Assembly (NCBI RefSeq): GCF_025060375.1
Contig: NZ_JANXCG010000042.1
Location: forward strand, 1-64,000
From: Meiothermus sp.
GTDB taxonomy: Bacteria > Deinococcota > Deinococci > Deinococcales > Thermaceae
Direction: 5' to 3'
Length of the DNA stretch: 64,000 bases
Positions 374-36,513 of this stretch are shown piece after piece. Made by a program: the position numbers and the translations under genes. The first letter of the stretch is position 1; each line of letters opens with the position of its first letter. Under the pieces are notes generated by a model. It did not search any database. It was given only the letters and a program-made list of their open reading frames with translations, and was not told where the DNA came from.

Positions 374-1474
374 ATGAAAAGCGTAGAATACCAGCCCGGC
401 CTCGAGGGCGTCGTGGCGGCGGAGACGGAGATCTCCTATCTGGACGTGGAAGCGGAGGAGATCGTCGTCCGAGGCTACGACCTCCTGGACCTAGCCCAGA
501 AGCGCACCTATCCCGAGGTGGCCTTCCTCCTCCTTCACGGCCGCCTGCCTGGCCCTGAGGAAGCGGAGGCCTTTGCCCAGGGCCTCCTCCAGGCGCCGGT
601 GCCCGAGGCGGTCTTCGCCATCCTGGGCCTCCTTCCCCCAGAGATGCACCCCATGGACCGGCTCCGCACCCTCCTTTCGGCCCTGGGTGGCTTTGAGGAG
701 GCCGGCCAGAAGGCCGACGCCGAGGCGGACCTCCGGGCCGGCCCCAGGCTCATCGGTCAGGCCGCCATCCTGGTGGCCAACCTCCTCAGAACCCAGCCCC
801 GCCGGCCTAAGCCAGAGCTGGGCTTCGCGGGGGCCTTCCTGGAGATGATCACGGAAAAGGTGCCAGGGGAAGCCGAGGCGCGGGCCTTTGACCAGCTCCT
901 CATCGCCTACAGCGAACACGAGCTGCCCAACTCCACCTTCGCCGCCCGGGTAATCGCCTCCACCCTGGCTGACCTGTACGGGGCGGTGACGGGGGCGGTG
1001 GCCTCGCTCAAGGGTCCCCTCCACGGGGGGGCCAACGAGGCAGTGATGGAGATGTTTCTGGAAGCGGAGACCCCGGAGGGCTTGGAGCGCCTAGTGCGCG
1101 AGCGCCTGGCGCGGAAGGAGCGGATCATGGGCTTCGGCCACCGGGTCTACATGCGCCGGATGGACCCCCGGGCCGCCCTGATGAAGGAGGTGCTGCGGGA
1201 GATGGCCCCAGGGAACCCCAGGGCCGCCCGCTACCTGGAGGTGGCCGAGCGGGGGGAGCGGGTGATGCGGGAGGAGAAGGGGCTTTACCCCAACCTGGAC
1301 TACTACGCCGCCCCGGTGCTCTATGCCCTGGGGGTGCCCGTGCCCCTCTACACCCCCATCTTCCTTGCCGCCCGCACCGCTGGTCTGGTGGCCCATGTGG
1401 TCGAGCAGCACGCCCACAACCGCCTCTTCCGCCCTCGGGTCCTCTACAAGGGGCCGCGGGGCCTAAAGGCCTAG
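374..1474 (+). CDS. prpC: 2-methylcitrate synthase / citrate synthase family
   Basis: Protein of 366 residues in the citrate synthase family; with its neighbours it most likely condenses propionyl-CoA with oxaloacetate. Visible family signatures are the ELPNSTFAARV helix with its preceding SEH, the GPLHGGANEAV loop, GFGHRVY and the C-terminal NLDYYAAPVLY and RPRVLYKGP segments, which carry the catalytic His and Asp and the substrate Arg. Length matches the short bacterial 2-methylcitrate type. It is first in a prpC-prpD-prpB operon; prpD follows after 10 bases. The start is set by a TAGGCT box 7 bases upstream. Sequence alone cannot exclude citrate synthase activity as well; the neighbours decide the call. 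Confidence 0.88.
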   Translation: MKSVEYQPGLEGVVAAETEISYLDVEAEEIVVRGYDLLDLAQKRTYPEVAFLLLHGRLPGPEEAEAFAQGLLQAPVPEAVFAILGLLPPEMHPMDRLRTLLSALGGFEEAGQKADAEADLRAGPRLIGQAAILVANLLRTQPRRPKPELGFAGAFLEMITEKVPGEAEARAFDQLLIAYSEHELPNSTFAARVIASTLADLYGAVTGAVASLKGPLHGGANEAVMEMFLEAETPEGLERLVRERLARKERIMGFGHRVYMRRMDPRAALMKEVLREMAPGNPRAARYLEVAERGERVMREEKGLYPNLDYYAAPVLYALGVPVPLYTPIFLAARTAGLVAHVVEQHAHNRLFRPRVLYKGPRGLKA

Positions 1475-1484
1475 GGGGTGCCCT

Positions 1485-2924
1485 ATGGAGCGGGATAGGG
1501 TATTGCAAGAGCTCACGCGGTACCTGGTGGCGGGGGAGGTGGGCGGGGAGAAGGCCCTCTTCACCGCCCGGCTGGCCCTGGCGGACGCCCTGGGCTGCCT
1601 CTATGAGGCCCTTACCTACCCGGAGGCGGTCAAGCTCGTCGGGCCCCTGGTCCCCGGGACCCACACCCCCTTTGGCGCCCGGGTTCCCGGGACCCCCCAC
1701 GCCCTGGACCCCATGCGGGCCGCCTTCAGCCTCACTGCCCTCATCCGCTGGCTGGACTACAACGACACCTGGCTGGCCAAGGAGTGGGGCCACCCTTCGG
1801 ACAACCTGGGGGCCATCCTGGCCCTGGGGGACCACCTGAGCCGCCTGCGCCGGGCCCGGGGGGAGGCCCCTTACCGGGTGGGGGACCTCTTGGCCTTGGC
1901 CATCAAGGCCTACGAGATCCAGGGCGTGCTGGCCCTGGAGAACGCCCTGAACCGGGTAGGCCTGGACCACGTGCACTGGGTCAAGGTGGCCTCGGCGGGG
2001 GTAGCTGCCCTCCTCTACGGGGGAGGGGAGGAGGCGGTGTTCAGTGCCCTCTCCCACGCCTTCCTGGACGGGGCGGCCCTCCGGACCTACCGCCACTACC
2101 CCAACACCGGTCCCCGCAAGTCCTGGGCCGCGGCGGACGCCACTGCTCGAGGGGTGTTCCTGGCCTGGGCGGCCATGAAGGGGGAGCCGGGCTACGCCAC
2201 GGCCCTCAGCGCCCCCACCTGGGGGTTCGAGGCGGTGGTCCTCAAGGCCCCCGTGGTGCTGGCCCGTCCCCTGGGCAGCTACGTGATGGAGAACGTCCTC
2301 TTCAAGGTGGCCTACCCTGCGGAGTTCCACGGCCAGACCGCGGTGGAGGCAGCCTTGGCCCTGCATGGGGAGGCCAGGGCCCTCTTGGGAAGCCCCGAGC
2401 GGCTCTTGGAGGAGGCCGAGGAAATTCTCATTGAGACCCAGGAGGCGGGCAAGCGCATCATCGACAAGCCCGGGCCCTTCCAGAACCCGGCTGACCGCGA
2501 CCACTCCCTGCAGTACATGACCGCGGTGGCCCTGCTCCTGGGAGAGCTGCGCTACGAGCACTACCTCGAGCCCACCGCCTCCGACCCCCGGATTCCCGCC
2601 CTCATCGCCAAGATGCGGGTGGTGGAGAACCCCGAGTTCAGCCGGGCTTATCTGGACCCTGAACGCCGGGCCATCCCCAACCGGGTGCGGGTGCGGCTTC
2701 GGGATGGGCGGGTGCTGGAGCGGCTGGTGGAGTACCCCCTGGGCCACCCCAGGCGGCGGGAGGAGAGCCTGCCCTTCCTCCGGGCCAAGCTGGAGCGGGC
2801 CCTCCACCTGGCCCTGCCCAGGGCGCGCGCCCAGGAGCTGCTCTACCTCCTGCTGGACGACCCCGCCCTGCCGGAGATGCCCGTGGACCGCTTCCTGGCC
2901 GCCCTGGCCCCGGAGGCCCCCTGA
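1485..2924 (+). CDS. prpD: 2-methylcitrate dehydratase (MmgE/PrpD family)
   Basis: Protein of 479 residues, usual for PrpD. It dehydrates 2-methylcitrate to 2-methyl-cis-aconitate in propionate breakdown. Family landmarks are LDYNDTWLAKEWGHPSDN near residues 90-110, AADATARGVFLAW near residue 215, and the YPAEFHGQTAVEAAL stretch. The MmgE/PrpD fold carries no iron-sulfur cluster. It sits 10 bases after prpC, and its TGA overlaps the ATG of prpB (TGATG), so the two are translationally coupled. No PrpE, AcnD or PrpF gene adjoins; an acyl-CoA synthetase further along the window could supply propionyl-CoA, but this is speculative. Confidence 0.9.
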   Translation: MERDRVLQELTRYLVAGEVGGEKALFTARLALADALGCLYEALTYPEAVKLVGPLVPGTHTPFGARVPGTPHALDPMRAAFSLTALIRWLDYNDTWLAKEWGHPSDNLGAILALGDHLSRLRRARGEAPYRVGDLLALAIKAYEIQGVLALENALNRVGLDHVHWVKVASAGVAALLYGGGEEAVFSALSHAFLDGAALRTYRHYPNTGPRKSWAAADATARGVFLAWAAMKGEPGYATALSAPTWGFEAVVLKAPVVLARPLGSYVMENVLFKVAYPAEFHGQTAVEAALALHGEARALLGSPERLLEEAEEILIETQEAGKRIIDKPGPFQNPADRDHSLQYMTAVALLLGELRYEHYLEPTASDPRIPALIAKMRVVENPEFSRAYLDPERRAIPNRVRVRLRDGRVLERLVEYPLGHPRRREESLPFLRAKLERALHLALPRARAQELLYLLLDDPALPEMPVDRFLAALAPEAP

Positions 2925-3829
2925 TGGCCTGGTTGCGCACGCCCCCGAGGTCCTCCCAGGAGCTGGCCGCGCTCCTCAGGGAGCGGCTCAGGGAGCCCCT
3001 GGTCCTCCCCGGGGTGTACGACCCCCTTTCGGCCCTCCTGGCCAAAGGGGCGGGGTTCACTGCCCTCTACCTTTCCGGAGCCGCCCTCACGGCGAGCCGG
3101 GGCCTGCCCGACTTGGGCCTCCTCGAGGCAGGGGAGGTGGCGGAGCGCGCCCGGGAGATCGTCTGGGCTACCGGCCTGCCCCTCATCGTGGACGCGGACA
3201 CGGGCTACGGCGGCCCCCTGAACGCGGCCCAGGCGGCGCGGCGCTTCCTGGCGGCGGGGGTGGCGGGGGTGCAGCTCGAGGACCAGCTCCACCCCAAGAA
3301 GTGCGGCCACCTGAGCCGCAAGCTCTTAGCACCCCCGGAGGACCTGGAGGCCAAGCTCCGCGCGGTGAAGGAGGCCGCCCCGGAACTTTTCCTCATCGCC
3401 CGCACGGACGCCTACGAGGCCGAGGGGCTGGAGGGCGTGGTGGCCCGGGCTAGGCGCTACCTGGAGGCTGGGGCCGAGGCCATCTTCCCCGAGGCCCTGC
3501 CCTCGCGGGAAGCCTTCCAGGCGGTGGCCGAGGCCCTGGAAGGGGCGGTTCTCCTGGCCAACCTGACGGAGTTCGGCCGCAGCCCCTCCCTGAGCGCAGC
3601 CGAGGTCTTCGCCCTGGGCTACCGCATCGCCCTCTTCCCGGTTTCCGCCCTCCGCGTGGCCGCCAAGGCTATGGAGGGCCTGTACCAGACCCTCATGGCC
3701 CAGGGCACCTCCAGGGGCTTCCTCCCCCAGATGCAGACCCGGGCTGAGCTCTACAGGCTGTTGGACTACTTCGCCTACGAGGAGTTTGATGCCCGGCTCA
3801 TGCCCTCCGAGCTGCCGGGGGAGGCCTGA
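2924..3829 (+). CDS. prpB: 2-methylisocitrate lyase
   Basis: Protein of 301 residues in the isocitrate lyase/PEP mutase superfamily; it cleaves 2-methylisocitrate to pyruvate and succinate. The signature KKCGH active-site loop is present (HPKKCGHLSRK, about residue 124), as are the metal-binding DADTGYG and the LIARTDAYE strand. The ATG overlaps the prpD stop codon. With prpC and prpD it completes the carbon steps of the 2-methylcitrate cycle. After the stop there is no clear terminator; a decayed gene fragment follows instead. Confidence 0.92.
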   Translation: MAWLRTPPRSSQELAALLRERLREPLVLPGVYDPLSALLAKGAGFTALYLSGAALTASRGLPDLGLLEAGEVAERAREIVWATGLPLIVDADTGYGGPLNAAQAARRFLAAGVAGVQLEDQLHPKKCGHLSRKLLAPPEDLEAKLRAVKEAAPELFLIARTDAYEAEGLEGVVARARRYLEAGAEAIFPEALPSREAFQAVAEALEGAVLLANLTEFGRSPSLSAAEVFALGYRIALFPVSALRVAAKAMEGLYQTLMAQGTSRGFLPQMQTRAELYRLLDYFAYEEFDARLMPSELPGEA

Positions 3830-3838
3830 TCTGCTGTC

Positions 3839-4023
3839 CGCGGCCTTCTCCTGAGCTGGTGGGTCCTGGGTGCGTTGGGGGCGCCGAGCGGTCCTGGCCC
3901 CATCTACATCACCTCCAGCCCCTGCGGGAGGTCGGCCAGTATGTGGCTGCCCGGGTCATCCGCCAGGCCCTCCAGGAGGCCGGCTTTTCCCAAAATCGGC
4001 TGCAGGTTTTCGTATACTCTTAG
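3839..4023 (+). pseudogene. Gene fragment resembling a malic enzyme C-terminus
   Basis: One forward frame reads LREVGQYVAARVIRQALQEA and stops at 4021-4023, with no plausible start codon of its own and a poor upstream sequence. The pattern, an Arg-Glu-Val followed by a VAxxVxxxAxxxG helix, resembles the last helix of NAD(P)-malic enzymes. I read it as a remnant, not a gene. The resemblance is short and could be accidental. Its stop codon lies inside the promoter palindrome of the next gene. Confidence 0.25.
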
Positions 4024-4026
4024 TAT
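4013..4026 (+). promoter_or_regulatory. -10 box inside a palindrome, tandem HspR gene
   Basis: TATACT at 4013-4018 is a strong -10 match. It lies inside the perfect inverted repeat ATACT-ctt-AGTAT (4014-4026), 25 bases upstream of the regulator ATG. A repressor bound here would cover the -10 box, which fits autoregulation. The site does not match the CTTGAGT-N7-ACTCAAG HspR operator known from actinobacteria. A small hairpin GGGC-gttta-GCCC (4030-4042) follows in the leader. No convincing -35 box is visible. Confidence 0.5.
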
Positions 4027-4050
4027 CAAGGGCGTTTAGCCCCTGGGTGT

Positions 4051-4767
4051 ATGGACAAGGACCGCCCTGTCTACATCATCTCGGTGGCCGCCGAACTGGT
4101 GGACATGCATCCCCAGACCCTGAGGCTCTACGAGCGCAAGGGCCTCATCAAGCCCAAGCGCTCCGGCGGCAAGACCCGGCTCTACTCTGAACGGGACGTG
4201 GAGAAGCTGCGGGAGATCCGCCGGCTTACGCAGGAGCTGGGGGTCAACCTGGCCGGGGTGGAGGAGATCATGCGGCTGCGGGATGAGCTTTGGGCCTTGG
4301 AGAAGCGCTTTCACGAGGAGGTGGAGCGGCTCAAGGCCGAGCTGGGGGAGAGGCTCGCTGCCCTCAAGACTCCCCCGGCCCTGCCTGCCCCGGGTGAGCG
4401 CCCCCGCCGGAACGAGACCGATAAGGACCGCCCCGTCTACATCATCTCGGTGGCCGCCGAGTTGGTGGGGATGCACCCCCAAACCCTAAGGCTCTACGAG
4501 CGCGAGGGTCTGGTGACCCCCCGCCGCACCGCTGGCAAGACCCGGCTCTACTCTGAACGGGACGTGGAGAAGCTGCGGGAGATCCGCCGGCTTACGCAGG
4601 AGCTGGGGGTCAACCTGGCCGGGGTGGAGGAGATCATGCGGCTGCGGGATGAGCTTGACGCCCAGCAAAGCCGGCTCGAGGCGGAGATTGCCCGGCTGCG
4701 CTTGGCCCTGCTGCAAAGGCTGGGGTCTAAAAAGGACCAGGAGCAGATGGAGCCCCAGGCCGGTTGA
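4051..4767 (+). CDS. Tandem-duplicated HspR-type MerR-family regulator
   Basis: Protein of 238 residues made of two head-to-tail copies of one unit, offset by 122 residues. Each copy starts [14 protein letters not shown] and carries the MerR winged helix with [10 protein letters not shown] and YSERDVEKL, then [15 protein letters not shown]. ISVAAxLxxxHPQTLRxY and the INLAGxxxI motif are typical of HspR heat-shock repressors. The copies differ mainly in the linkers: the first has a coiled coil and Pro-rich linker (about residues 80-120), the second a shorter coiled coil. HspR proteins normally carry one such domain. There is no dnaK or clp gene nearby. The ATG is preceded by a weak ribosome site. 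Confidence 0.85.
4168..4290 (+). repeat. Copy 1 of a 123-bp perfect direct repeat
   Basis: This part of the first HspR domain is identical base for base to 4534-4656. It begins at GGCAAGACCCGG and ends at GATGAGCTT, encoding [14 protein letters not shown] through RLRDEL. The offset is 366 bases, exactly 122 codons, so recombination between copies would keep the frame. Confidence 0.9.
4534..4656 (+). repeat. Copy 2 of the 123-bp perfect direct repeat
   Basis: This is identical to 4168-4290. Flanking parts of the two domains have diverged at synonymous and non-synonymous sites, so the perfect block points to recent duplication or gene conversion confined to this segment. Confidence 0.9.
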
Positions 4768-4804: not shown

Positions 4805-5188
4805 GTGCGCACCCTTATCGTGCTGGCCCTGGTTGCGGCGGGGGTCTACCTCTATGCAGAGCGGTTTGGCCTGGCGGTGGGCTACGCGCCCTTCACGCCG
4901 GTTTTCTACTGGAACTACAGCGGAGAGGCGGTCTACCCTTTGCGGGCCACGGGGATTCGCCCGTTTATCAAGGTGATGGTGGCCGGAGAACTGCGCAAAG
5001 GGAGCCTGGAGGTGGAGATCCGCCGCAGCGGCCAGGCTACCGCTGGGCTGGTCAAGCGCTACCAGGGGCGCTTTTCCGATGAGGTTCGCTACCCGGTGGA
5101 ATCGAGCCTGTACGAGGTGGTCTTCCGCCTGAAGGGGGCTCGAGGCCAGGTGCGGATGGACTGGGTGGCGGCCCGAAACGAGTTCTGA
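4805..5188 (+). CDS. Small membrane-anchored or secreted protein, unknown
   Basis: Predicted 127 residues. The N-terminus (RTLIVLALVAAGVYLYAE) is a signal peptide or signal anchor; the rest is soluble, with Trp and Tyr residues and a basic, strand-rich C-terminal half. I recognise no family. The GTG start is chosen because TATACT at 4793-4798 lies 6 bases upstream, matching the leaderless promoter pattern seen throughout the window; no Shine-Dalgarno fits. It lies between the tandem HspR gene and the CoxL-like gene, in the same direction. The CoxL-like gene has its own TAGGAT box. Confidence 0.6.
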   Translation: MRTLIVLALVAAGVYLYAERFGLAVGYAPFTPVFYWNYSGEAVYPLRATGIRPFIKVMVAGELRKGSLEVEIRRSGQATAGLVKRYQGRFSDEVRYPVESSLYEVVFRLKGARGQVRMDWVAARNEF

Positions 5189-36358: not shown

Positions 36359-36434
36359 TGGTGGGCGACGAGGGACTCGAACCCCCGACTTCATCCTTGT
36401 AAGGGATGCACTCTACCAGCTGAGTTAGTCGCCC
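36359..36434 (-). tRNA. tRNA-Val (anticodon UAC)
   Basis: The minus strand folds as a 76-base tRNA: acceptor GGGCGAC with GTCGCCC, D-arm CTCAGCTGGTAGAG, anticodon stem CATCC/GGATG with loop CTTACAA (anticodon TAC), and T-arm GGGGGTTCGAGTCCCTC. The 3' CCA is encoded (36361-36359). Confidence 0.95.
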
Positions 36435-36437
36435 GTC

Positions 36438-36513
36438 TGGTGACCCCAAGGGGATTCGAACCCCTGTTACCGCCGTGAGAGGGCGGCGTCCTAGGCCGCT
36501 AGACGATGGGGCC
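36438..36513 (-). tRNA. tRNA-Glu (anticodon CUC)
   Basis: A 76-base cloverleaf on the minus strand: acceptor GGCCCCA with TGGGGTC, anticodon stem CCGCC/GGCGG with loop CTCTCAC (anticodon CTC), and T-arm AGGGGTTCGAATCCCCT. CCA is encoded. Three bases separate it from the tRNA-Val gene, so they are probably one transcript. Confidence 0.95.

Follow-up and report, generated by a model that had tools for sequence, protein, structure and literature searches.

Why does a Meiothermus gene encode two heat shock repressors in one polypeptide, and why do its two halves share a run of identical nucleotides set between flanks that differ? We followed up these questions for the gene at positions 4051-4767 of the window, by which we mean the whole 64,000-nucleotide stretch of Meiothermus sp. 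DNA that was analyzed. The answer to which we give a probability of about 0.8 is that this gene encodes the genome's sole HspR, a MerR-type repressor of chaperone operons that acts as a single-chain dimer, and that its halves come from an old duplication and have recurrently undergone conversion.

The open reading frame lies on the plus strand, starts with ATG and encodes 238 amino acids. The model NF047377, "heat shock protein transcriptional repressor HspR, fused homodimer type" (cut-off, 300 bits), matches it over the full profile, 1-214 of 214, with 398.9 bits, and the HspR model NF047375 (cut-off, 105 bits) scores 241.8 bits on the protein in two stretches. Pfam MerR_1 matches the N half (67.8 bits) and the C half (68.0 bits) separately, and the closest solved folds of one half are the MerR-family structures GlnR/TnrA and CadR/CueR; each half is thus a MerR-type winged helix. 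Those proteins differ from the fused HspR in being separate chains that dimerize and in their signals. The preliminary description, which had seen two full HspR units 122 residues apart in one polypeptide, is borne out by these matches. The only other match to the fused HspR in the genome is weak (a 307-amino-acid frame elsewhere, E value of 3.6e-6, 36% identity), and 4051-4767 is therefore the sole HspR. The nearest named relative is Meiothermus luteus, at 94% identity. AlphaFold predicts for each half a winged helix and then a long helix, with a disordered linker between the halves; the pTM of 0.37 for the fused chain leaves their relative placement unfixed. The recognition role of the two helices so named below is that known for the MerR family. 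The features of the locus are as follows.

4013-4018, plus strand: probable -10 element TATACT of hspR, predicted, conserved in the upstream alignment of the genus.
4051-4767, plus strand: hspR, fused homodimer type, 238 amino acids (open reading frame and the two HspR profile matches given above).
4075-4275, plus strand: N-half MerR-type winged-helix domain, amino acids 9-75 (Pfam MerR_1).
4111-4137, plus strand: N-half recognition helix, amino acids 21-29, outside the identical block (AlphaFold model helix).
4138-4167, plus strand: N-half wing segment, amino acids 30-39, ancestral-like (half-specific alignment).
4168-4290, plus strand: identical block, copy 1, amino acids 40-80 (repeat comparison, AlphaFold model).
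4249-4368, plus strand: N-half long helix, amino acids 67-106, candidate dimerization helix (AlphaFold model).
4369-4422, plus strand: linker between halves, amino acids 107-124, predicted to be disordered (pLDDT below 50).
4441-4641, plus strand: C-half MerR-type winged-helix domain, amino acids 131-197 (Pfam MerR_1).
4477-4503, plus strand: C-half recognition helix, amino acids 143-151 (AlphaFold model).
4504-4533, plus strand: C-half wing segment, amino acids 152-161, diverged from the N half (alignment of 18 genomes of the genus).
4534-4656, plus strand: identical block, copy 2, amino acids 162-202 (repeat comparison).
4615-4740, plus strand: C-half long helix, amino acids 189-230 (AlphaFold model).

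The preliminary description implied that such a fusion is rare. On the contrary, members of this group normally have it, and the two-unit architecture is already catalogued under its own NCBIfam model. Of 50 Thermaceae genomes, 38 score above the NF047377 cut-off, among them every one of the 18 from the window's genus, and the fused type is present in all five Thermaceae genera searched. Within the wider class, we found fused genes in families f2, f3 and f4 and single-unit HspR in family f5, which is probably Trueperaceae. On the simplest reading of these sequences, there would have been one ancient duplication after f5 split off, and it would be common to most families of the order. The control Deinobacterium chartae also passes the fused-type cut-off. 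It falls in the same wider group as Deinococcus radiodurans, whose HspR (DR0934), compared here by its description only, is a chaperone-gene repressor of the same phylum that binds HAIR sites near chaperone promoters (PMC6888292). Our protein does not differ in architecture from the NF047377 type; the conversion mosaic and the half-specific wing described below are absent from that model's title, and no paper on fused HspR or its gene conversion turned up in the library searched. What we add is that the halves overwrite each other by conversion while the Meiothermus wings stay different.

We then considered where such a protein would bind. The Streptomyces HAIR consensus is CTTGAGT-N7-ACTCAAG (PMC6102357). 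An exact search for it gave no match in the genome, and with two mismatches allowed the number of matches equaled the control, one of them lying before hsp20. From the dnaK, clpB and hsp20 promoters of the window's genome we wrote the pattern TTGAYA-N7-ACTCAA. Exact scanning of the whole genome returned four sites, just upstream of groES-groEL, clpB, hsp20 and dnaK, and none before hspR itself; three of the four had served to write the pattern, and the independent evidence comes from groESL here and from other genomes. The 18 genomes of the genus together contain 65 such sites and a single match to the reversed pattern. At 25 of the 30 site loci that were read, dnaK, clpB, hsp20 or groES follows at a near-constant distance (96-121 nt for dnaK, 36-39 for clpB, 52 for hsp20 with 126 in one case, and 138-140 for groES). 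At hsp20 and clpB the site overlaps a TTGACA -35 box that lies 17 nt from a -10 box, a position that fits repression by blocking polymerase.

Each half of the protein matches single-domain HspR (Streptomyces, Mycobacterium, Helicobacter; NF047375), and the operator spacing is the same as in the published consensus (PMC6102357); the differences are the two units per chain and, in this genus, a left half-site that is TTGAYA instead of TTGAGT. Each operator is a single HAIR-like dyad spaced like a classical HspR site, and for this reason we prefer one chain per DNA site. Judging from sequence, the protein is most likely a covalent MerR-type dimer that represses chaperone operons. The flexible linker of about 18 residues would join the halves, the two long helices would most likely pair within one chain, and one polypeptide would occupy one dyad at the dnaK, clpB, hsp20 and groESL promoters. 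Bound HspR is predicted to block transcription until heat releases it. In Streptomyces, DnaK acts as a co-repressor of HspR.

The preliminary description had offered two binding modes, monomeric binding by a covalent dimer or the bridging of two operators. The first is plausible and is the one that the single dyads favor. The second found no support, given one exact site at each chaperone promoter in the genome. In its broader form, this alternative holds that the fused chain is bivalent and that halves of two chains pair, bridging two operators or spreading along DNA. The linker is flexible, the model leaves the arrangement of the halves unfixed, and Helicobacter pylori HspR covers about 70-80 bp and has been modeled as three cooperating dimers (PMC6102357). 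Against it stands the single exact site per chaperone promoter, even if the groESL promoter also carries further TTGACA-like repeats, which may or may not be HspR sites. We hold bivalent binding to be unlikely and keep to the single-chain dimer on a single dyad.

Thermus chaperone genes showed no exact match to the pattern upstream, and the family therefore does not share one identical operator. We considered Thermus matches to TTGA-N9-ACTCAA as operators and rejected them: by eye, several genomes share one before a sulfite/nitrite reductase-like gene, and none lies before a chaperone gene. In several Meiothermus genomes (L126, L136, L139), TTGATATTGACACACTCAA recurs; it fits the HspR pattern and does not precede a chaperone gene. 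The copy in L126 is followed, after about 120 nt, by an Ffh-like (signal recognition particle) gene. The groESL leader of the window's genome (L120, G000:C16, 1431-1405, minus strand) carries TTGACACTC-N9-GACTGTCAA, which resembles a CIRCE element, the site of HrcA; at the equivalent place, Thermus has TTGACACTC-N9-GAGCGTCAA. By this resemblance, groESL may be under two repressors.

The repeat itself raises the second question. A direct repeat of 278 nt (4054-4331 and 4420-4697, spaced by 366 nt or 122 codons) is 85% identical, and its longest identical run is the 123 nt at 4168-4290 and 4534-4656, exactly as the preliminary description had placed it. In the 105 nt to the left of this block, the halves differ at 21 positions. 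According to the AlphaFold model, the block begins near the end of the wing, runs through alpha-3 and alpha-4 and stops in the first part of the long helix. The proposal that selection keeps the recognition region equal found no support in that form: both recognition helices are outside the block, and 16 of the 18 genomes of the genus have unlike halves in the wing adjoining these helices.

On both sides of the block the halves carry fixed differences. In the wing just before the block, the C half departs from the N half by K26E and S34T in 16 of the 18 genomes and by I29V in all 18 (half numbering), so that KGLI.PKRS of the first half becomes EGLV.P.RT in the second. In the long helix just after the block, W77D, L79Q and E80Q separate the halves in 18 of 18. 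At most of these positions in the wing, the N half agrees with Thermus and f5. If the middle is converted, as we argue below, fixed differences on its flanks would be expected where conversion is frequent and selection protects some differences; chance placement of conversion tracts is another possible source of the same pattern. We tentatively suggest, as a possibility that we rate below even odds, that the Meiothermus repressor is an obligate covalent heterodimer, one chain reading the two half-sites of the operator differently, with selected differences in wing and helix and a middle homogenized by conversion. Co-evolution of the asymmetric operator TTGAYA/ACTCAA with the asymmetric halves was considered and rejected: no comparable operator set was found before Thermus chaperone genes, and the left half-site overlaps the -35 element.

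Recent gene conversion, also proposed in the preliminary description, was supported. First, within 15 Thermus genomes, the N and C halves differ at only 12 of 698 fourfold sites (1.7%). Between Thermus species the figure is 26-27%, whether N is compared with N, C with C or N with C. Second, in a tree of all halves, every one of the 15 Thermus genomes has its own N and C halves as sisters; in Meiothermus (g1), the two kinds of half lie apart and the N halves form one clade, and when the tree is built from the block only, the N and C halves of one genome become sisters in 5 g1 genomes, including the window's. Third, we ran a GENECONV-like test with our own script on silent polymorphic codons only. 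The window's gene has 9 mismatches among 69 silent polymorphic sites and a run of 42 silent polymorphic codons without an N/C mismatch; about 0.1% of shuffles reach such a run, and so the identity of the block exceeds what protein conservation alone would give. Across the 22 genomes tested, the uncorrected p is about 0.001 in the window; G011 gives 0.003, and G002 and G004 each give 0.0001. The block is best explained, on these comparisons, by gene conversion. The C half of the window reads EEIMRL in the block as the N half does, and 16 of 18 g1 C halves read EEII, which suggests that conversion went from N to C.

Protein-level selection alone, holding the block identical with no conversion, would account for block amino acids that are near-identical in both halves across every genome of the genus. 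However, the silent positions are identical too, whereas most other genomes of the genus show 7 to 31 nt of difference between halves in this 123-nt stretch, and neither the low fourfold difference within Thermus genomes nor the regrouping in the block tree would follow from it; we consider this explanation highly improbable. Ectopic conversion between halves 366 bp apart most likely overwrites one half by the other repeatedly, reaching the whole unit in Thermus and only the middle in Meiothermus, where the 123-bp block is a recent tract. The gene is a natural case of a single-chain transcription factor dimer with halves that conversion keeps identical (Thermus) or that partly escape it (Meiothermus), and a comparison of close relatives can thus show what asymmetry does to a homodimer.

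An assembly artefact as the source of the duplication or of the block deserves almost no credence, even though Thermus assemblies do break or shrink at the hspR repeat: the block is short, the fused gene occurs in every genome of the genus searched (17 besides the window's, most of the genus having diverged halves) and in two sister genera (two genomes of each), where the halves have identical stretches of their own or have diverged, it is present in assemblies that consist of one contig or a few, and an assembly error would be expected to lose a copy, not to make a half-specific wing beside an identical block. Fully identical halves likewise occur in Thermus genomes of one to a few contigs. 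The 12 Thermaceae genomes below the fused cut-off are all Thermus. In six, the pieces run out where the contig does; four carry a continuous single-unit gene; one gave no clear piece; and in one, which is poorly assembled, the reading frame changes between the two halves. The loci concerned are:

L037-L040: single-unit Thermus hspR, N start joined to C tail.
L041-L050 and L052: the six Thermus assemblies that break at the hspR repeat.

In the four single-unit genes, the start of the N half is joined to the tail of the C half, a form that either recombination between identical halves or their collapse during assembly would produce. For the single-unit genes both collapse and real loss are possible, and collapse may also lie behind the broken genes; that hspR breaks or shrinks in short-read Thermus assemblies is a warning.

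Several observations concern the surroundings of hspR. A short hairpin, GGGC-GTTTA-GCCC, lies at 4026-4046, between the -10 box and the start codon. Sixteen of the 18 genomes of the genus share it; the remaining two (AGGCG...CGCCT) and Calidithermus have changed stem letters on both sides, and pairing seems to be kept. In the window alone, its fold is no stronger than those of shuffled sequences (z of 0.03 and -1.27). A gene remnant suspected at about 3897-4020 was dismissed, having no Pfam match over the cut-off, and the 127-amino-acid protein just downstream of hspR (4805-5188) likewise has no Pfam match over the cut-off. Elsewhere in the window, tRNA-Val and tRNA-Glu genes lie 3 nt apart on the minus strand at 36359-36513. 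Directly upstream of hspR, at 374-3829, genes of the citrate synthase, PrpD and PEP mutase/ICL families stand in a row that looks like a methylcitrate cycle (prpC-prpD-prpB) operon.
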